The position numbers and the translations under genes are program-made. A stretch of DNA of 64,000 nt from Brachyspira alvinipulli ATCC 51933 (lineage in GTDB: Bacteria; Spirochaetota; Brachyspiria; Brachyspirales; Brachyspiraceae): positions 122,949 to 186,948 of the forward strand of contig NZ_KI912407.1 in assembly GCF_000518245.1 (NCBI RefSeq), written 5' to 3'. Position 1 is the stretch's first letter, and each line of letters starts with the position of its first letter. The notes below the pieces were generated by a model. The model was not told the origin of the DNA. It was given only the letters and a program-made list of their open reading frames with translations, and did no database searches. Shown piece by piece: positions 14,081 to 39,438 of the stretch.

Positions 14081-14503
14081 ATGACTAAAAACATATTTTT
14101 ACCAGCTTTACATACTATATTAGATGATTTTAGAGGTTTTGATGAAGCATTTAATGGCTTATACAATAGTAATGAAATAAAAAGAGCATGCCACTATAAT
14201 ATAGAAGAAAATGATAAAAACTACTCTATAGAAATAGATATGCCTGGAGTAAAAAAAGAAGATTTAGAAATAGGTATAAAAGAAAATGTATTATCTATTT
14301 CTGCTAAACGCAAAAAAACAGTAAAAACAGAAAATGGAGAATCCAAAGAAGAAATCATATCAAGCTATGAACAAAGCTTTAATGTAAGCACAAAAGGTAT
14401 TGATATAGAAAATATAGAAGCTAACTTAAATAATGGAGTTTTGACTATAGCTCTTCCAAAAAAAGAAGAGATTAAATATGAGAAAAAAATTAATATAGCT
14501 TAA
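14081..14503 (+). CDS. Small heat-shock protein, Hsp20 family
   Basis: 140 residues with an alpha-crystallin domain from about residue 42 to 135. It includes YSIEIDMPGVKKEDLEIGI and the C-terminal GVLTIALPKK (the family GVLxIxxPK motif). It acts as an ATP-independent holdase for unfolding cytosolic proteins. AAGGAG precedes the ATG. The N-terminal tail, which starts KNIFLPALHTIL, is shared with the downstream paralogue. A possible sigma-54-like promoter and a leader inverted repeat lie upstream. Confidence 0.93.
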   Translation: MTKNIFLPALHTILDDFRGFDEAFNGLYNSNEIKRACHYNIEENDKNYSIEIDMPGVKKEDLEIGIKENVLSISAKRKKTVKTENGESKEEIISSYEQSFNVSTKGIDIENIEANLNNGVLTIALPKKEEIKYEKKINIA

Positions 14504-14560
14504 TGAGTTTAATTAGAGGTTTATGAGAATTTTTAGAATATGAAATAAGGAGATTTCAAT

Positions 14561-14992
14561 ATGTCAAAAAGAATATTTGTACCAACTTTACATTCAATTT
14601 TTTCAAATACTAATAGATACAATAATCCTGTAGGAAATTACAATCATTACAGAGATTATGAACATAGAATGCTTGATTATAGAATAGATGAAGATGAAAA
14701 GAGCTACTGCCTAGAAATAGATATGCCTGGAGTTAGGAAAGAAGATTTAGAAATAGGTATAAAAGAAAATATATTATCTATTTCTGCTAAAAGAAAAAAA
14801 ATGATGAAATCAGATGATGGAGAAACAAAGGAAGAAGTTATTTCAAGTTATGAGCAGAGTTTCAATATTAGTACAAAAGGTATTGATGTAGAAAATATAG
14901 AAGCCAACTTAAATAATGGAGTTTTAGTTATAAACCTTCCAAAGAAAGAAGAGTTTAAGTATGAGAAAAAAATTGAGATTAAAGGGGAATAA
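14561..14992 (+). CDS. Small heat-shock protein, Hsp20 family (tandem paralogue)
   Basis: 143 residues and a close paralogue of the preceding gene. The segment IDMPGVRKEDLEIGIKENIL is nearly identical, and both carry SSYEQSFNxSTKGID. The alpha-crystallin domain ends in GVLVINLPKK. It has its own AAGGAG site 57 bases after the first stop and is probably co-transcribed. The pair may form hetero-oligomers, as IbpA/IbpB do. A strong bidirectional terminator follows. Confidence 0.93.
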   Translation: MSKRIFVPTLHSIFSNTNRYNNPVGNYNHYRDYEHRMLDYRIDEDEKSYCLEIDMPGVRKEDLEIGIKENILSISAKRKKMMKSDDGETKEEVISSYEQSFNISTKGIDVENIEANLNNGVLVINLPKKEEFKYEKKIEIKGE

Positions 14993-15091: not shown

Positions 15092-16381
15092 TTAACTCCA
15101 TTTACTCATATCCATTTGTTTAGTCAATTTAGCAACAACAGCAGTACCGCATAAATCTCCTGATATATTCAAAGCTGTTCTTCCCATATCAAGTAAAGCA
15201 TCTATTCCTACTATCATACCATAAGCAGCAGCCACATTAGCATTAGAATTAATATCTAGTCCTATAGAATTGAGAACCATTAAAAGCATAATAGAACCGG
15301 CTCCAGGAACACCAGCTGTACCAATAGCAGCCAAAACAGACACTATAACAACCGTTAATTGAGAATCAAAATTCAAATGATTTCCGCTTGCATTAGCTAT
15401 AAAAATAGCACAAATACCTAAATATATTGCAGTACCATTCATATTTATAGTTGCACCTAAAGGTAAAGTAAAGCTATAAATACCTTGATTAATTCCCATT
15501 TGTTCATCGGCAATTTTCATAGATATAGGCAATGTTCCGCCTGAAGAACGTGTAACAAAGGCTGTAAATAAAGGCTCAGAAATCTTTTTTAAGAATTTAA
15601 GAGGGTTTATTCCAAAAATAATATTTATTATACTGTAAACAATCACTAATTGAATGATAAAAGAAAAATAAATAGTGAATGTAACTTTAAATAAAGAACC
15701 GAATGAACTAGGTCCGTTTTTAGCAAATACTGTAAATATCAATGCCAAAACACCTATAGGAGCATAGAACATTATCCATCCTACAATTTTGATTATAATA
15801 TGTGTACATCCGTCAAAAAATTTATACACTATCTCAGCATTTTCTTTTGTTTTTTCATTGTGTCTGCAAAATGCCAATGATATTCCAAAGAAAATAGCAA
15901 AAAATATAGTAGGAAGAACATCTCCGTCACCTTTTGCAAATGAAGCGAATGGGTTTGTAGGTATTGTGGAAAGTAATGTATCTATAAAACTTGGTTTAGT
16001 AAACTCTTTAGTTGCCGCCATAGCAAAATCTAAATCCATTCCCAAACCCGGTTTAAATATATTGCCTATAAAAAGACCGAATATAGATGATATTGCTGAT
16101 GTTACTATATAAAATGCCAATATTATAATACCAACTATACCTAAATCTTTAGGCGATATGCTTGATACTCCGCTTATTAAAGTAAAAAGTATTACAGGCA
16201 TTACTATCATTTTTAAAAGTCTTATAAATATAGTGCCTATAGGATCAGCTATAGCTATAAGTTTTGCAGTAGTTTCAGCAGAAGCATTTAATGAAACTAT
16301 CATACCAAGTACAGCACCTGCTATTAAGCTTATAAGTATAAAAATCAGCAGCTTGCTTTTAACATCTTTAAGCATACTCAT
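15092..16381 (-). CDS. Dicarboxylate/amino acid:cation symporter (DAACS, GltP type)
   Basis: A 429-residue inner-membrane transporter of the sodium/proton-coupled glutamate/aspartate/C4-dicarboxylate family. Visible hallmarks are the serine-rich hairpin-1 segment FVTRSSGGTLPIS, NMNGTAIYLG in transmembrane segment 7, GTAGVPGAGSIMLL in hairpin 2, and DMGRTALNISGD in segment 8, whose Asp and Arg bind substrate. These point to an acidic amino acid or C4-dicarboxylate rather than a neutral one. It is monocistronic between two terminator regions. Confidence 0.9.
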   Translation of the reverse strand: MSMLKDVKSKLLIFILISLIAGAVLGMIVSLNASAETTAKLIAIADPIGTIFIRLLKMIVMPVILFTLISGVSSISPKDLGIVGIIILAFYIVTSAISSIFGLFIGNIFKPGLGMDLDFAMAATKEFTKPSFIDTLLSTIPTNPFASFAKGDGDVLPTIFFAIFFGISLAFCRHNEKTKENAEIVYKFFDGCTHIIIKIVGWIMFYAPIGVLALIFTVFAKNGPSSFGSLFKVTFTIYFSFIIQLVIVYSIINIIFGINPLKFLKKISEPLFTAFVTRSSGGTLPISMKIADEQMGINQGIYSFTLPLGATINMNGTAIYLGICAIFIANASGNHLNFDSQLTVVIVSVLAAIGTAGVPGAGSIMLLMVLNSIGLDINSNANVAAAYGMIVGIDALLDMGRTALNISGDLCGTAVVAKLTKQMDMSKWS

Positions 16382-16569
16382 AAAAAAAATCCTTAAATAA
16401 TTATTATTCTGTATTTTAAATTATGTTAATAAATATTAAAAAATCAATACTACATAAGATTATTTAATATTTTAAATTTAAAAAATATAACTTTTTTGTT
16501 CTATAATAATAAACCAATACAATAATAATAATTAAAATTTTATCCGTAAAAAATACAAAAATATGTACT

Positions 16570-17838
16570 TTATAAATTATATCTTCTCATAAATATTACA
16601 AAATATATTATTCCTATGAAAAACGGAATTACAGAGGATACAGACATTGAAGCATATATACCCAAAAATCCAATACTGTTTTCCAATATCCTTGATAAAA
16701 TAACTTTAAAGAAGATTGAATCAATAAATGAATTAATAAATGATAAATATGATTTCTGCATGCCTATAAGAAAACTATCCAATATATACATAACAGCATA
16801 AATAATTCCATTAAAAGAGGCGCATATTCTTAAGTAAAATACGGCATCATTTACTGTCTTTTCATCGCCGCTGTAAAATAAAGATATAATATCTATTGCA
16901 AACAAATGTATAAATATAATTGCTGCTGCTGTAATCAATATATTGAAAAATATTCCAAACACAACAATATTTTTTATTTCTCTATAGTTCCTCTCACCAA
17001 TATTTTTTGAAACAATTATACTCAAAGCCTCCCCTACAGACCAAGAAATCATGCCTATAAAAGTATTGATTTTTAATCCTATTGTGAATCCCGCTATTAC
17101 ATCATATTTATTCATCATTATGTTAACTATAAAATACGACATATTTATTATAAGCATTTGAAATATGCATGGAAAAGAAAGTAATATCAATTCTATTATA
17201 ACTTCTGTATTAATATCAAAACTTATATACTCTCTTACAAAATATAATGATAATAAAAAACTTATAGCCTGCGATATTACAGTAGCTAAAGCAGCACCTT
17301 TTACAGACATACTCAATAACACTACGAACAAAAAATCAAGTATAATATTAATCAAAGCGGCAATTATAATAAAATATAATGCAGCTTTTTCCTTTCCTAT
17401 TGATTTTATTACAGATGATAAAGAAGAATATAAAAACATAAATGATACGCCTATAAAAATTATTCTAATATAATCATAAGCATAATTAAATGATTCCTTT
17501 GGTATATTCATAAAAATTAATATTTGTTTAGAAAATATTATACCTATTATTGAAATTATTATAGAAGACAAAACAGCTAGAAATATTAAATTGCCGATAC
17601 TTTGTTTATATTTTATTATATCTTTAGAGCCTCTGTATTTGGATATTATAACAGAACCTCCTATAGATAAACCCAAAGATATAGAATTTACTATAAACAT
17701 AATTGAAGCACAATTTCCCAATGCAGCAATTCCCTCTTTTCCTACTGTATGCGAAATGAATATTATATCTATTATGCTGTATAAATATTGAAGTGTATTA
17801 GAAATAAATAATATAATTGAAAATTTGATTAAATACAT
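16570..17838 (-). CDS. MATE family efflux transporter
   Basis: 422 residues with about 12 membrane segments and the two-fold MATE repeat. Family segments include SIIDIIFISHTVGKEGIAALG (first helix pair) and SVGEALSIIVSKNIGERNY. It exports organic cations or metabolites in exchange for sodium or protons. It is slightly short at the N-terminus. The long 5' leader can fold so that AUG and flanking bases are base-paired (17837-17983), implying post-transcriptional control. It is monocistronic; the substrate is unknown. Confidence 0.88.
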   Translation of the reverse strand: MYLIKFSIILFISNTLQYLYSIIDIIFISHTVGKEGIAALGNCASIMFIVNSISLGLSIGGSVIISKYRGSKDIIKYKQSIGNLIFLAVLSSIIISIIGIIFSKQILIFMNIPKESFNYAYDYIRIIFIGVSFMFLYSSLSSVIKSIGKEKAALYFIIIAALINIILDFLFVVLLSMSVKGAALATVISQAISFLLSLYFVREYISFDINTEVIIELILLSFPCIFQMLIINMSYFIVNIMMNKYDVIAGFTIGLKINTFIGMISWSVGEALSIIVSKNIGERNYREIKNIVVFGIFFNILITAAAIIFIHLFAIDIISLFYSGDEKTVNDAVFYLRICASFNGIIYAVMYILDSFLIGMQKSYLSFINSFIDSIFFKVILSRILENSIGFLGIYASMSVSSVIPFFIGIIYFVIFMRRYNL

Positions 17839-17983
17839 GAAACTTTCCTTGAATTAAAACAAAAGACAAATGCATACAAAAAATTTATAAACCGCAAAGA
17901 ACTGCAGTATAATTATTTTTTAGTATGCCCCAACAATAATTTTATAAAATACTGTAGGAGCTTAATTCAATAACAAGTTTCAT
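17837..17983 (-). promoter_or_regulatory. Structured 5' leader RNA of the MATE gene (candidate riboswitch-like element)
   Basis: On the minus-strand RNA, 5' arm 17983-17962 pairs with 3' arm 17857-17837. This gives two perfect 9-bp helices separated by a 4x3 internal loop. The 3' arm holds the AAGGAAA ribosome site and the AU of the start codon. Nested inside are CUACAGUAU (17957-17949) with AUACUGCAG (17910-17902), 8 of 9 pairs, and a 7-bp stem AAUUAUU/AAUAAUU (17941-17935 with 17917-17911). The inner 17-base loop contains GGGGCAUAC. Its GCAUAC (17928-17923) can pair with GUAUGC at 17877-17872, making a pseudoknot. I do not recognise it as a known class. Confidence 0.5.
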
Positions 17984-18115
17984 ATATCTATATTATTTGA
18001 ATCAATATAATTGTCAAGTATTGATATTATTGTGATTTTATTTTATTATATATAAAATGTATAATTAAAAAAAATAATAATATATAAATACACTACACTA
18101 TAATAGTATATATTA

Positions 18116-18144
18116 TTGACATAATATCAAATTAATTTTATAAT
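18116..18144 (+). promoter_or_regulatory. Consensus sigma-70 promoter of the surface-protein cluster
   Basis: TTGACA (18116-18121), exactly 17 bases, TATAAT (18139-18144): a perfect match to the housekeeping consensus. Transcription should begin near 18151, giving a leader of about 23 bases without a clear Shine-Dalgarno sequence before the ATG at 18174. An ATG at 18145 lies before the predicted RNA start and opens only a short frame. Confidence 0.85.
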
Positions 18145-18173
18145 ATGAAAAAATTATTTATAAATATACTAAA

Positions 18174-18956
18174 ATGTTTAGCATTAAAACACATTTCATA
18201 AAAATAGTATCAATAATAATTCTTCTATTATCCTTACTATCATCAAGTTTGTTTGCAGAAATAGATTTTAATTTGATTATGCCGTTTGGGTATAATTTCA
18301 CTTTCTCTGATGCAAAAATCACAGAAAGTTATATTTCCTTAATATCTTTAAAAAATACGGATTATTATGAAGTCGGCGTACAGTCTCAAATAGGATATAA
18401 TTTTGATACAAAAAATAGTATTTTTAAAAGTATAAGTATAATGGCTGAAATAGGATATCAATTATCCCCAATGTCAGTATCTTATAATAATTCCTACAGC
18501 GAAGTTACAAACAATATATTATTTCACACTTTACATATAGGATTAATTCAAAAATTCTATGTGCTTGACAGATTATCATTCGGTATAGGAGGCGGAATAA
18601 GAATACCTTTTTCTGCCGATGTTAAAGTATACGGAGATGATTTAAGATACCCGCCTATTCCAACTAATAATGGAAAATATGATTATAGTTATATAAAATC
18701 TTTATTCAACAGCAGAGTTATTCCATATATAAAATTGACTATGGACGGATATTATTTCTTTAATGATTTTGTTTCTTTGATTATAGGTCTTTATATCACA
18801 TACAGTATGGATATGAACTTTAATACAGATAAATTGAATTCCGCTTTTCGCACTGCATATTATCATAACTACTCATATTCATCTATAGGTGCGGGTATTA
18901 ATATAGGTTTATCCATTGGAAGAAAAGGAAGCAATGAAAGAAAAATAATTGAATGA
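18174..18956 (+). CDS. Outer-membrane beta-barrel protein, paralogue 1 (type A)
   Basis: 260 residues with an N-terminal signal peptide (hydrophobic run IVSIIILLLSLLSSSLFA, cleavage near LFA-EI). The rest is alternating aromatic/hydrophobic strand-like sequence typical of a small outer-membrane barrel. Shared family blocks are IDFNLIMPFG just after the signal, FHTLHIGLIQKFY, GIGGGIRIPFSADV and VIPYIKLTMDGYYFF. It closely resembles paralogue 3 (type A). The function is unknown; surface exposure is likely. It is the first gene behind a consensus promoter. Confidence 0.8.
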   Translation: MFSIKTHFIKIVSIIILLLSLLSSSLFAEIDFNLIMPFGYNFTFSDAKITESYISLISLKNTDYYEVGVQSQIGYNFDTKNSIFKSISIMAEIGYQLSPMSVSYNNSYSEVTNNILFHTLHIGLIQKFYVLDRLSFGIGGGIRIPFSADVKVYGDDLRYPPIPTNNGKYDYSYIKSLFNSRVIPYIKLTMDGYYFFNDFVSLIIGLYITYSMDMNFNTDKLNSAFRTAYYHNYSYSSIGAGINIGLSIGRKGSNERKIIE

Positions 18957-18978
18957 TTAACTTAAAGGTTATTATTTT

Positions 18979-19728
18979 ATGAGAAAGTATTTAAAATACA
19001 TTATACTTATTTTTATTTTTTATAATAATGTTTTTGCAGGCATAGATTTTTCTTTATTTGTACCTATTGACGGAAATGTATCTATTTTAAATAAACGTAT
19101 AAATACTCAAGATCATTTAAGAAATATATATGAATACGGATATTGGAGTGCGGGCGTTCTTTCTGAAATAGGATATAATTTTAAATTTGATAATAAATAT
19201 ATTAATAGTTTAAGTATAGTAGGAACTATCGGATATATGGCTTCAACACTTCCTATTGAAGTTAGTAAAGAACTAATCGGAAGATTTTATGAAGTTACAT
19301 TTTTACATACATTAAATACAGGAGCTTCAGTAAAAATCATTAATAATATAACTAATTATAATCTTTCTTATTCTATAGGATTAGGAGGAGGAATAAAAAC
19401 TCCGTTTAGCGGAAATGTTATAAGTCAGCTGGCTGCTGCAGATGAATCTGTTTTAACAGGAAAAGAAGAATATAATTTCAGCGACATAAAAAAAGTATTT
19501 AAAAGCGTTGTTATACCATATATAAAACTTGATGTTAATTTGTATTATCATTTAACTAAAAATGTATCATTTATGGCAGGACTTTATTTTAATTATAACT
19601 TTGCTTTTAAATACAATACTGATTATATAAATAATTTTGCAGGTGTAAAAGTATTTGATAAATTGGAAGCTTCCAGCTTTTCTATGGGAGTATCTTTGGG
19701 ATTTGCTATAAGGGATAATGGGTATTAA
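18979..19728 (+). CDS. Outer-membrane beta-barrel protein, paralogue 2 (type B)
   Basis: 249 residues with a signal peptide ending near VFA-GI. Barrel blocks are GIDFSLFVPIDGN, FLHTLNTGASVKI, GLGGGIKTPFSGNV and VIPYIKLDVNLYYHL. The blocks LHTLNTG and ESVLTGKEEY ally it with paralogue 4 rather than with its immediate neighbours (type B). It starts 22 bases after paralogue 1, in the same direction, with AAGG upstream. Probably surface-located; role unknown. Confidence 0.8.
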   Translation: MRKYLKYIILIFIFYNNVFAGIDFSLFVPIDGNVSILNKRINTQDHLRNIYEYGYWSAGVLSEIGYNFKFDNKYINSLSIVGTIGYMASTLPIEVSKELIGRFYEVTFLHTLNTGASVKIINNITNYNLSYSIGLGGGIKTPFSGNVISQLAAADESVLTGKEEYNFSDIKKVFKSVVIPYIKLDVNLYYHLTKNVSFMAGLYFNYNFAFKYNTDYINNFAGVKVFDKLEASSFSMGVSLGFAIRDNGY

Positions 19729-19731
19729 TTT

Positions 19732-20535
19732 ATGAGAATTATAAGAAATATTATTATTATACTAACTATAAACTGTTTTAATATATTTGCTTTAAATATA
19801 GATTTTAATTTATCTATACCTATGGGAGCAAATTATGACTTTTTAAATGTATCCATAGACGAAAATATGCTTCTGGCTAATTCTCCTATAAATCCTATAC
19901 CCAGAACATCATTAAAAAGCGATTTTGCATTTGAAATAGGAGTTTTGGCACAGCTTGGATATAATTTTAAATTGGAAAACAGTGTGTTAAAAAGTACAAG
20001 CACTATGATTGATTTTGGGTATTATTTATATCCTATGGCTGTTAATTACAATCAAAGCATATTAGGAAATGAAGAAGTAAAAACAGTTATAACATTTCAT
20101 ACTATAAATATAGGCGGTATTCAAAAATTTTATTTAGGCAACAATTTTGCTGTAGGTTTAGGTGGCGGAGTTAAAATACCTATGTCATATACATTCAATA
20201 ATATAGATTCAAAAATAAATAATCCTCTTCCGCAGGATAATAAAGGAAACCGTGATTATATAAAAACAATTTATGACAGTAAAGTAATACCTTATGTTAA
20301 ACTTACATTAGAAAGCTTCTTCTTTTTCACTGATAATATAGCAATTAATTTGGGAATGTATGTTTCATATAATATAGGTATGAATTACAATGTATATAAA
20401 TTAAATACCGATATCGCCAATGCCAATAATACTGCAAATGAAAGATATTATAATAAATTTAATTCATCATCTTTGGGTGTAGGGTTTATATTAGGAGCTT
20501 CTTTCACAAGAGTTAATCCTAAACTGCAAAATTAA
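19732..20535 (+). CDS. Outer-membrane beta-barrel protein, paralogue 3 (type A)
   Basis: 267 residues with a signal peptide ending near IFA-LN, followed by IDFNLSIPMGANY. The type A blocks FHTINIGGIQKFYLG and VIPYVKLTLESFFFFTDN match paralogue 1. It starts three bases after the stop of paralogue 2, so translation is probably coupled. Extra low-complexity loops (NTDIANANNTANE) near the C-terminal third may be surface loops. Function unknown. Confidence 0.8.
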   Translation: MRIIRNIIIILTINCFNIFALNIDFNLSIPMGANYDFLNVSIDENMLLANSPINPIPRTSLKSDFAFEIGVLAQLGYNFKLENSVLKSTSTMIDFGYYLYPMAVNYNQSILGNEEVKTVITFHTINIGGIQKFYLGNNFAVGLGGGVKIPMSYTFNNIDSKINNPLPQDNKGNRDYIKTIYDSKVIPYVKLTLESFFFFTDNIAINLGMYVSYNIGMNYNVYKLNTDIANANNTANERYYNKFNSSSLGVGFILGASFTRVNPKLQN

Positions 20536-20546
20536 TAATTAAAAAA

Positions 20547-21377
20547 ATGGAAAATAAAAAAATGAAAAGAGCTATTATTTATATTTTATTATTTATTTTA
20601 TCTGTTTTTAACAGCAGCAGACTTTTTGCAGGTATAGAAATTGATGCATATATTCCGTTTGGTATAAATGAAACAGATATTAACAGCACGGTAAAAAATA
20701 AAGATTATACAGAGAATTCATTTAAAAAGTTTTATGATGAAATTGCAGCAGAAACAGGAATTTTAGTAAGAGGCGGTTATAATTTTGATTTACAAACACC
20801 TATAATAGACAGCTTAAGTTTAATGCTTGATATAGGCTATTATATGTCGCCAATATCTATATCTTATGTACACTCACTTATAGGAACAATATCTGAAACA
20901 ACTTTGCTTCATACATTAAATACAGGGCTTGCATTAAAATTATATTTTTATGCTCCTATAATAAATCTTTACTACTCCATTACATTAGCAGGAGGAGTAA
21001 AAACCCCATTCGGCGGAAATGTTTTAAATAACAGTGCTTTAGGAAATGAATCTATACTATCTGATAAAGATGCATACGGATACAGAGATATAAAAAACTT
21101 ATTTAAAACTCCTGTTATAGGCTACTTAAAATATAATGTTGATTTTTATTATATGCTTACAGAAAAAGTATCAATTATGTACGGTCTTTATCTTTCTTAT
21201 GATTTCGGAATGAGCTATAATACAGAATTTTTAAATAATCATTTAAAATATTATGAAGTACCTCCTCTAATTCAGTCTCCGATATTCGGTTCTATGAGCT
21301 ATAATAATTTAAGTGTAGGCATTTCATTCGGGCTTTCTTTCGGAAAAACTCATCCTAAAGTGAAGTATGGATATTAA
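20547..21377 (+). CDS. Outer-membrane beta-barrel protein, paralogue 4 (type B)
   Basis: 276 residues. The signal peptide ends near LFA-GI, followed by EIDAYIPFGINE. Type B blocks LLHTLNTGLALKLYF, GGVKTPFGGNVLNN and ESILSDKDAY match paralogue 2. It starts 11 bases after paralogue 3. The second in-frame ATG (residue 6) is an equally plausible start. Function unknown. Confidence 0.78.
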   Translation: MENKKMKRAIIYILLFILSVFNSSRLFAGIEIDAYIPFGINETDINSTVKNKDYTENSFKKFYDEIAAETGILVRGGYNFDLQTPIIDSLSLMLDIGYYMSPISISYVHSLIGTISETTLLHTLNTGLALKLYFYAPIINLYYSITLAGGVKTPFGGNVLNNSALGNESILSDKDAYGYRDIKNLFKTPVIGYLKYNVDFYYMLTEKVSIMYGLYLSYDFGMSYNTEFLNNHLKYYEVPPLIQSPIFGSMSYNNLSVGISFGLSFGKTHPKVKYGY

Positions 21378-22787: not shown

Positions 22788-22905
22788 TTTTGATAAAAAG
22801 TACAAGGAGAATTTTTTAAATAAATATAAAAAAGGAGGATTAAATAAAAATTGTTAGTATAAAATGGCAGAGGGTTATAGGCGAACAATTTTTATTAACA
22901 ATAAT

Positions 22906-23676
22906 ATGAAAGCAGTAATTATTTTTTTAATTGTTAATATTACTTTATTTGCTCAGTTTGAAATAAATGCCTTTGTTCCTTTCGGGCTTAATGGGAGTTT
23001 CAGCAGTATAAAATTAAGCAACCCTAACCGTACATATCAAAGCATAAAGGGAGATATAGGCGGCGAGTTAGGAGTTATTGCCCAGCTTGGATATAATATG
23101 AAATTGAATAAGGACATTCCTATAAAAAGCATAAGTTTTCTTTTGGAAACGGGCTATTATTTAAATGCTAATACTATAACTTATGATTATCCGTATGCCG
23201 AGTCATATAATTATTTTGAAATGTCTGAAACTGTGATTATGAATAATATTTTAATAGGCTTTAATCCTAAAATAAATTTCCGCAATTTTTCATTAGGTAT
23301 AGGCGTAGGAATGAAAATACCGTTATCCGCTGATGTATTAGAAAAAAGCAATGATAAAGGCGAGACAATGAAAGAAAATACTATTTTTGAAGGCTCTTTA
23401 ATGTATCAGGATAAAAAGCATTGGAATTATGATGTTATAAAAAAATTGTATAAAGAGTCAGTGTCTCCTTATATAAAAATAAACTTTGAAGGGCTTTATT
23501 ATTTCACTGATAAACTAGCATTTTTATACGGAGCTTATATAGCCTATGATTTTTCGATGCCTTATAATACCGATAATATACAGATAGTAGATAAAACTTT
23601 AATAAAGAGTTATCAATTATCATATTTATCATTTATGTTTTATTTAGGAGTGTCATTCGGAAGGAATAATAATTAA
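22906..23676 (+). CDS. Outer-membrane beta-barrel protein, paralogue 5 (type A-like)
   Basis: Starting at 22906 gives 256 residues with signal MKAVIIFLIVNITLFAQ. An ATG at 22864 would add 14 polar residues in front of the signal, so I prefer the internal start, although neither has a good ribosome site. Family blocks are FEINAFVPFGLNG, FSLGIGVGMKIPLSADVL and SPYIKINFEGLYYFTDKLA. It is closest to types 1 and 3 but diverged. It is separated from the other four by two lipoprotein genes, suggesting older duplication or rearrangement. Two unused AGGAG-like sites upstream (22804, 22833) hint at local decay. Confidence 0.75.
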   Translation: MKAVIIFLIVNITLFAQFEINAFVPFGLNGSFSSIKLSNPNRTYQSIKGDIGGELGVIAQLGYNMKLNKDIPIKSISFLLETGYYLNANTITYDYPYAESYNYFEMSETVIMNNILIGFNPKINFRNFSLGIGVGMKIPLSADVLEKSNDKGETMKENTIFEGSLMYQDKKHWNYDVIKKLYKESVSPYIKINFEGLYYFTDKLAFLYGAYIAYDFSMPYNTDNIQIVDKTLIKSYQLSYLSFMFYLGVSFGRNNN

Positions 23677-25390: not shown

Positions 25391-25903
25391 ATGGAGTTAA
25401 AAGATTACATAAGAGATATACAAGATTATCCAAAAAAAGGCATACTATTTAGAGATATTACAACATTGCTTCAAAATAAAGATGCTTTTAAATTGGCAAT
25501 AGATAAAATGGCAGAACAAGTTTCAAATGAAAAGATAGATTTTGTAGTAGGAGCAGAAAGCAGAGGTTTTTTAATAGGTTCTGCTTTAGCTTACAAAATG
25601 AATTGCGGTTTTATACCTGTTAGAAAAAAAGGAAAACTCCCTTATAAAACTATTTCAGAAGAATATGCTTTAGAATATGGTACTGATACTTTATTCATGC
25701 ATGAAGATGCTCTTAAAAAAGGAGACAGAGTTTTAATAGTTGATGATTTAATAGCTACCGGAGGCACTGCATTAGCAATGATAAAAATGGTGGAAAAATT
25801 AGGAGGAATTGTAGTTGGATCATCCTTTTTAATAGAGCTTAAAGAATTAAATGGAAGAAAAGAAATATCAAAATATCCTATTAATGTTTTGATACAATAT
25901 TGA
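25391..25903 (+). CDS. apt: Adenine phosphoribosyltransferase
   Basis: Salvages adenine to AMP with PRPP. The 170-residue protein has the type-I PRT fold. DYPKKGILFRDITTLL near the start and GAESRGFLIGSALAY are Apt-specific, and VLIVDDLIATGGTALA is the PRPP-binding loop. The length is exactly typical. A GAGGTG site precedes the ATG. Confidence 0.96.
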   Translation: MELKDYIRDIQDYPKKGILFRDITTLLQNKDAFKLAIDKMAEQVSNEKIDFVVGAESRGFLIGSALAYKMNCGFIPVRKKGKLPYKTISEEYALEYGTDTLFMHEDALKKGDRVLIVDDLIATGGTALAMIKMVEKLGGIVVGSSFLIELKELNGRKEISKYPINVLIQY

Positions 25904-26332: not shown

Positions 26333-26495
26333 ACTTATTGATAATTATGATAGTTATATTTATTGTTAATAAAACTTTTTCGTATCATAAAGAATTAATA
26401 AGGTTAAATAATATATCAAAATATATTATTTAATTTTATTAATTTGTTTCATAAAAATAGTATAGTCTTTAAATTTATCAGGAGTTTTTTTATAA

Positions 26496-27668
26496 ATGCT
26501 GAAATATTTTATAATATTTATTGCACTATTGAATGTTATATATGCACAAGAATCTACAACAAATCAAACTAAAACATCAGAATATACTTTTACATACGAA
26601 AAAGAAAATAACTTTAATATATCTGACACTAATGCCTTAAATGAAGTTTCAATAATGATTGAAAGAAGAGGTCTTCCTCTTGTTAATAGATTAGTAAGAT
26701 TTACATCATTAAAGCCTGATGTATTTACATTTGAAAATACAACAGAAAATGAAATATCTTTAAAAGAGATGGAAGAAGAAGAAAATACTAATGAAGTAGA
26801 TATATATACAAATGTTTATGTAGTTCCTACAGATGAAAACGGTGTTGCAAAAGCTAAACTAAATTTAAAAGGTACTGGTGAAGGTGTTGTTCTTATGCAT
26901 ATACTTTATGTAGGATCAACAGGCAATACAAATATATCTTATGAAGAATTTGCTCATGTAAACGTTTATGATGATAATGACAACTTTTCATATAAAATAT
27001 TAAATGGAGATGGAAAAAGTATAAATGTCAAAGGTTCCATGATAATGACATTAACATTATTTCCTGCCCTATTTTTAGTTGCCATAGCATTAATATTAAT
27101 AAGCTATTTCAAGCATATTTATGATGAATACAGAACTGCTAAATCTAAAATAATAATGTATACTTTCTTTGGATTTAGTGCCATAAAAAAGAATTTTAAA
27201 TTGATGATGATAATTATATTAATAGAATTGATTATAGTTGCAAGTTTTATGTTTTTAGATAGTTATATTTTCTCAGTATTATTAATAGCTTTCTTTATAG
27301 CAGGATTTATAGTAAAGAGAGAGAAAATATACTCTATAGCATTCTTTATACTTGCATGTATTTCAATGATATATCTTTATCTTCAAACATTTATGAATTA
27401 TTTAGGGCTTGAATGCCTATTTAATTCCGGCATAATGGGAAATCCTGTATTTATATTCTTATTATTTATAATATTAACAGCATTATCAGGCGGAATATAT
27501 ATACCATTATCCATCTTAGTTTTATATAAAACTATATTTAATATAAGTGACTTATCTTTAATTATGGCATTGATTGGAATATTTATAGCATCTGTTCTTT
27601 ACATAGTTAAAGTAAAAAAGGATATACCATTTTTATATTCTTTAAATCTGTTAAAAATAAAAGATTAA
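26496..27668 (+). CDS. Membrane protein with extracytoplasmic N-terminal domain
   Basis: 390 residues, family not recognised. A cleavable signal (FIALLNVIYA) is followed by about 165 residues of beta-rich, probably periplasmic sequence, with segments such as VDIYTNVYVVPTDENGVAKA that resemble an Ig-like fold. About seven hydrophobic helices follow from residue ~185, with a KHIYDEYRTAKSK cytoplasmic loop. The arrangement suggests a sensor or envelope-assembly protein, but no catalytic motif is visible. The next small gene starts six bases later and is co-transcribed. Confidence 0.7.
   Translation: MLKYFIIFIALLNVIYAQESTTNQTKTSEYTFTYEKENNFNISDTNALNEVSIMIERRGLPLVNRLVRFTSLKPDVFTFENTTENEISLKEMEEEENTNEVDIYTNVYVVPTDENGVAKAKLNLKGTGEGVVLMHILYVGSTGNTNISYEEFAHVNVYDDNDNFSYKILNGDGKSINVKGSMIMTLTLFPALFLVAIALILISYFKHIYDEYRTAKSKIIMYTFFGFSAIKKNFKLMMIIILIELIIVASFMFLDSYIFSVLLIAFFIAGFIVKREKIYSIAFFILACISMIYLYLQTFMNYLGLECLFNSGIMGNPVFIFLLFIILTALSGGIYIPLSILVLYKTIFNISDLSLIMALIGIFIASVLYIVKVKKDIPFLYSLNLLKIKD

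Positions 27669-37923: not shown

Positions 37924-39438
<1,515 letters not shown>

Follow-up and report, generated by a model that had tools for sequence, protein, structure and literature searches.

A conserved leader RNA in Brachyspira predicted to occlude the start of a MATE exporter gene

In the 64-kb stretch of Brachyspira alvinipulli DNA that was analysed (the window), the gene for a drug/toxin exporter of the MATE family is preceded on the minus strand by a leader RNA that extends from 17983 to 17839, as the original prediction had proposed. The modelled folds, which were conserved in 17 leaders and lost with the gene, support the view of a conserved RNA that covers the exporter's start, and the leader looks like an undescribed RNA on/off switch. 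Whatever its trigger, the element probably acts in cis on translation of the exporter. That it is a genus-specific translational off-switch, opened in riboswitch-like fashion by a small molecule at a core formed by the P1 internal loop and the P2 junction, is a tentative but serious possibility. Members of the genus Brachyspira are gut spirochaetes, among them gut pathogens of pigs and birds; every close relative of the MATE gene that has a named record comes from this genus.

The predicted fold is closed by two perfect 9-bp helices, P1a and P1b, which were read from the sequence at the positions originally claimed for them and which enclose P2, P3 and P4 (Table 1). Between the two helices lies an internal loop in which GUUA (17974-17971) faces GGA (17848-17846), the core of the Shine-Dalgarno (SD) sequence AAGGAAA, so that the second strands of P1a and P1b flank this core. 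Once P1 is formed, the AUG at the start of the leader and the AUG of the MATE gene both fall within P1a, and GGA is held in a loop inside the P1 stack. The idea that the start codon is masked therefore stood in part: the A and U of the AUG are paired, but the GGA of the SD is unpaired. Translational masking is well supported by this modelled anatomy. In contrast, the proposed kissing or pseudoknot interaction of GCAUAC with GUAUGC was not borne out; in the best fold these strands form the nested stem P3, and in some relatives a plain hairpin is formed.

Table 1. Predicted elements of the MATE leader and its surroundings (window coordinates).
Feature	Position	Strand	Remarks
MATE family efflux transporter, 422 aa	16570..17838	-	TIGR00797 180 bits (cut-off 147); MatE PF01554
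-35 hexamer TTGACA	18012..18017	-	position kept at 18 of 19 homologous loci (G020: TTGAAA)
-10 hexamer TAATAT, 16-nt spacer	17990..17995	-	predicted start 7 nt downstream, at 17983
Possible leaderless mini-ORF MKLVIELSSYSIL, then stop	17942..17983	-	prediction only; MKLVIE then stop in ten relatives
P1a 5' strand AUGAAACUU	17975..17983	-	invariant in 17 leaders
P1 internal loop, 5' side GUUA	17971..17974	-	invariant
P1b 5' strand UUGAAUUAA	17962..17970	-	UA/AU compensation at the seventh pair in some relatives; six carry a mismatch there
P2 hairpin, lower stem GCUCC/GGGGC, upper stem ACAGUA/UAUUGU	17927..17961	-	best fold; relatives
P3 5' strand GCAUAC (formerly the 'kissing' element)	17923..17928	-	nested stem in best fold
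P4 hairpin ACUGCAG-UUCU-UUGCGGU	17891..17908	-	4 of 7 pairs changed on both sides (17 leaders)
P3 3' strand GUAUGC	17872..17877	-	partner elsewhere in type B relatives
P1b 3' strand UUAAUUCAA, pairs with UUGAAUUAA	17849..17857	-	best fold; pair counts
Shine-Dalgarno-like AAGGAAA	17844..17850	-	unchanged across the 17 kept leaders; decayed G015 has AAGAAAA
P1a 3' strand AAGUUUCAU, pairs with AUGAAACUU	17837..17845	-	contains A and U of the MATE AUG

Fold energies, all of them secondary-structure predictions, placed the leader well beyond chance. The minus strand of 17830-17990 folded to -48.7 kcal/mol, whereas shuffled sequences averaged -24.5 (z -7.3; none of 200 shuffles as low). The predicted transcript alone, taken from the first base of the upstream AUG as far as the MATE AUG, folded to -41.4 kcal/mol (z -7.2). 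When the leaders of the window's 44 ORFs were compared, that of the MATE gene had the lowest z (-7.0); the next was -4.1 and the median -0.4. An RNA on the opposite strand was rejected, since the plus strand folded less well (-28.8, z -4.9).

By DNA search, full-length homologues of the leader, 19 in all, were found in 17 of 26 Brachyspira genomes, while three sister-genus genomes had none. Each is located at the 5' end of a MATE ortholog (66-85% identical) or its remnant. The covariance search that had been suggested as a check, carried out with model R1, recovered these 19 places again and nothing further, whether run over 29 genomes of the family or 296 of the phylum. The failure of the original prediction to place the RNA in a known class was upheld: Rfam gave no match at gathering score, and at E values up to 10 it gave no riboswitch, the hits being pntA and two microRNA families, each scoring well under its gathering threshold. 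In the searches made here, the leader had neither an Rfam match nor a paper describing such an RNA in Brachyspira. Two arrangements were found among the relatives. In type A, which includes the window, the partner of GCAUACU lies after P4; in type B, AGUAUGC lies directly downstream and gives a local hairpin, and an additional hairpin fills the space. In these modelled folds the P3 5' strand retains a partner although the partner has moved. Two genomes, G024 (L009 and L020) and G004 (L010 and L021), carry two copies of the leader with a MATE gene or remnant, one of type A and one of type B.

The natural loss of the exporter provided a comparison between leaders with and without a gene to serve. 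The fold was kept in all 17 leaders whose MATE gene was intact or only recently broken (z -4.3 to -8.7), including three with a frame-broken gene (G003, G005 and G010; z -6.8, -6.1 and -6.5). At G004b and G015, where MATE was reduced to fragments, the fold had collapsed (z -1.8 and -1.3, respectively), with damage in P2, the SD and P1; the changes in G015 struck P1, the SD, P2 and P4 at sites that were mostly constant in the kept leaders. Since the fold was kept with the gene and collapsed where the gene had rotted, it is tied to the exporter. As read from these genomes, this series, which rests on two loci, gives the strongest argument that the fold acts on behalf of the MATE gene; for a lineage-specific RNA, comparative evidence is seldom so clean, the fold being gone only where the gene was gone. 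The exporter itself seems to have been lost repeatedly, with three frame-broken loci and two remnants.

Conservation was strongest in the 5' arm. In the alignment of 17 leaders the first 20 of 20 columns were invariant, and 27 of the first 28 were invariant or nearly so, the unpaired GUUA and AA included. By comparison, only 6 of 52 four-fold sites were invariant in 13 intact MATE genes, the proteins of which were about 75% identical (median). Paired bases were found in 98.1% of cells, as counted in an alignment made with the covariance model and sampled from one genus. Alignment A5 was used for these counts because those from A4 were inflated by a weak plus-strand R1 match in L015, which was rejected as a reflection of the near-palindrome. 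Changes on both sides occurred at five pairs. P4 holds four of these; the fifth, at the end of P1b, was UA in seven leaders, AU in four and mismatched in six, and its AU form arose in two separate places on the gene tree. The covariation score was 0.123, higher than in any of 500 shuffles (mean 0.074) or any slide (maximum 0.038), in an alignment fitted to this structure. Compensatory change was thus present in P4 and at the pair that closes P1b. No variation was seen in P1a or in six of seven P1b pairs, and since the masking helices are nearly invariant, covariation is uninformative for P1a and most of P1b.

The invariant unpaired GUUA and AA represent more than pairing alone explains. A static structure, which would hold the exporter constantly low or stabilise the mRNA and respond to no signal, would account for the very stable P1 and for the fact that no alternative fold was found; however, such a stem should drift through compensatory changes and would have no need of invariant unpaired bases, and we consider this explanation improbable. 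The strict invariance of both arms and of the unpaired bases would also fit specific recognition of the P1/P2 core by a protein, small RNA or RNase that sets exporter translation or mRNA decay. Against such a partner, there is a single element per locus, at one gene, and the DNA search of its own genome revealed no second convincing copy; binding of this kind is improbable. Two readings at the DNA level were set aside. A mobile-element inverted repeat was rejected, the element occurring once per MATE locus and its arms having unequal middles (GUUA/GGA), and a pair of DNA operator half-sites was judged less likely, as the middles differ in length and sequence.

The promoter hexamers lead to a predicted transcription start at or adjoining 17983, a base that opens the P1a 5' strand and is also the A of an AUG. 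An RNA start inside 17837-17983, named beforehand as a finding that would count against the leader, is not what this promoter predicts. The best-scoring distance from the -10 hexamer to the AUG was 6 or 7 bases in 14 of the 19 loci; the other loci, in which the choice of -10 is ambiguous, had 5 or 8. Judged from sequence, the mRNA may begin AUG AAA CUU GUU AUU GAA, that is, with a leaderless MKLVIE mini-ORF. The stop of this mini-ORF was at codon 7 in ten leaders and at codon 13 or 14 in nine. By hand inspection of two leaders, no other MATE start codon was present between the in-frame upstream stop and the AUG. No hairpin resembling a Rho-independent terminator was found in 16300-18300, so control, if any, is more likely to be translational.

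The predicted start at an AUG raises the alternative of a translation attenuator, in which a ribosome initiating or stalling on the MKLVIE mini-ORF would hold the 5' arm and prevent P1, allowing translation of the exporter. A translation inhibitor or altered leaderless initiation would then be the signal, as in attenuators of the ermC or cat-86 type. The AUG was present in all loci except the decayed G015 (GUG), codons 1-6 were invariant, and the Val and Ile codons would account for three of the four invariant unpaired loop bases. The 5' arm would also be accessible, being predicted to be 82-95% unpaired in a 60-nt nascent RNA in 17 of 17 leaders, and P1 is stable enough to require a ribosome for its opening. 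However, the CAUG palindrome means that pairing through the MATE start codon (the CAU of UUUCAUG) automatically yields the upstream AUG. Furthermore, the variable stop position and the complete lack of synonymous changes count against the attenuator, the conservation of P2 is left unexplained, the -10 assignment is ambiguous in several loci, and no evidence for leaderless translation in Brachyspira was found. On balance the attenuator is unlikely, although credible. In ermC and cat-86 type attenuators the ribosome site is part of a stem, and a leader peptide can be encoded on the 5' side of that stem. The Brachyspira leader shares this layout, before a gene for export as those are before genes for resistance or export, but its mini-ORF would be leaderless, would start with the stem itself and would have no SD, and it lacks a conserved stop. 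That the mRNA opens with a leaderless mini-ORF that is itself an antisense lock on the exporter ribosome site, the two start codons sharing a helix and a ribosome on the first opening the second, would make this a new RNA class; we regard this as rather unlikely. If the mini-ORF did work in this way, it would be an unusual coupling of translation stress to export.

For the off-switch opened by a small molecule, the following sequence of events is proposed. Transcription would start at or next to 17983, and the first approximately 20 bases would remain single-stranded while P2, P3 and P4 fold. These bases would then capture the last approximately 20 bases of the leader to form P1, which would leave the SD and the MATE AUG inside a nearly continuous, interrupted helix and block 30S loading by default. 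A signal linked to the substrate of the exporter would open or prevent P1, and the exporter would be made; the most likely signal would be a small molecule bound at the invariant core of the P1 internal loop and P2 junction. Blocking the first 16 bases was predicted to cost approximately 7-15 kcal/mol. With the 5' arm blocked P1 was lost, and the SD remained covered in part by a weak hairpin (about -4 kcal/mol) that involves the beginning of the coding region.

Secondary-structure prediction gave no conserved competing fold that would free the ribosome site. The motif UUAUUG occurs both in the P1 5' arm (17973-17968, minus strand) and in the P2 3' strand (near 17938, minus strand); in principle the 5' arm could pair with the P2 5' strand, and no stable alternative was predicted. 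Since P1 is predicted to be stable and no conserved competing fold was found, any signal must act against a stable helix. From the sequences we infer three candidate openers of P1: a ligand that redirects the fold, a ribosome on the 5' arm, or a protein or RNA partner. The invariant unpaired bases speak for a specific binding core, as does an almost invariant P2 base; the predicted start at an AUG speaks for a ribosome.

Ligand sensing by the leader, as put forward in the original prediction, is plausible and putative. The leader agrees with the general description of a riboswitch in being a conserved, structured leader of a plausible target gene. Translational riboswitches sequester the ribosome site, with the SD and AUG held in the 3' strand of the closing helix, and the closing helix of the Brachyspira leader has the same arrangement; by its modelled fold the leader would work like such a ribosome-site-sequestering switch, and it belongs to none of the Rfam classes tested. 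It differs in having no known ligand class and in being confined to a single genus. Two observations argue against a small-molecule switch: the closing helix P1 is predicted to be stable without any ligand, and the RNA occurs at one gene family only, whereas riboswitch classes usually serve several genes. If the leader does sense a compound, its ligand would show what the exporter, otherwise anonymous, naturally transports.

Leader RNAs upstream of MATE-like transporters have been described in the guanidine-IV (GGAM-1) riboswitch and its Gd4v variant, which consist of two hairpins joined by a pseudoknot, the 3' hairpin resembling a Rho-independent terminator; guanidine-IV was reported from several phyla, Spirochaetes among them (PMC7736828, PMC9788692). 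The Brachyspira leader resembles these RNAs in its association with a MATE gene. In contrast, it is a multibranch fold closed by P1 that sequesters the SD and AUG, and neither a terminator nor a supported pseudoknot was found in it.

Several other features were observed in the window. The second most structured leader region (26353-26498, plus strand; z -4.7) is a long AU hairpin that precedes a 390-aa ORF (26496) and lies approximately 590 bases after a phosphoribosyltransferase-like ORF (25391-25903); it may be a terminator or spacer element. A 16S rRNA gene is located at 37924-39438 on the minus strand, with 23S and 5S unmatched within the 64 kb in the Rfam scan. A series of paralogous ORFs of approximately 250-280 aa, with signal-like N-termini and similar motifs (18174-21377 and 22864-23676, plus strand), resemble surface or outer-membrane proteins; a perfect TTGACA-17-TATAAT promoter (18116-18144), divergent from that of MATE, precedes the first of them. 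Two Hsp20-like ORFs lie side by side at 14081-14992 (plus strand), and an Hsp20-like reading frame is also found 3' of the MATE remnant in G015 (L018), which suggests an old shared gene neighbourhood.
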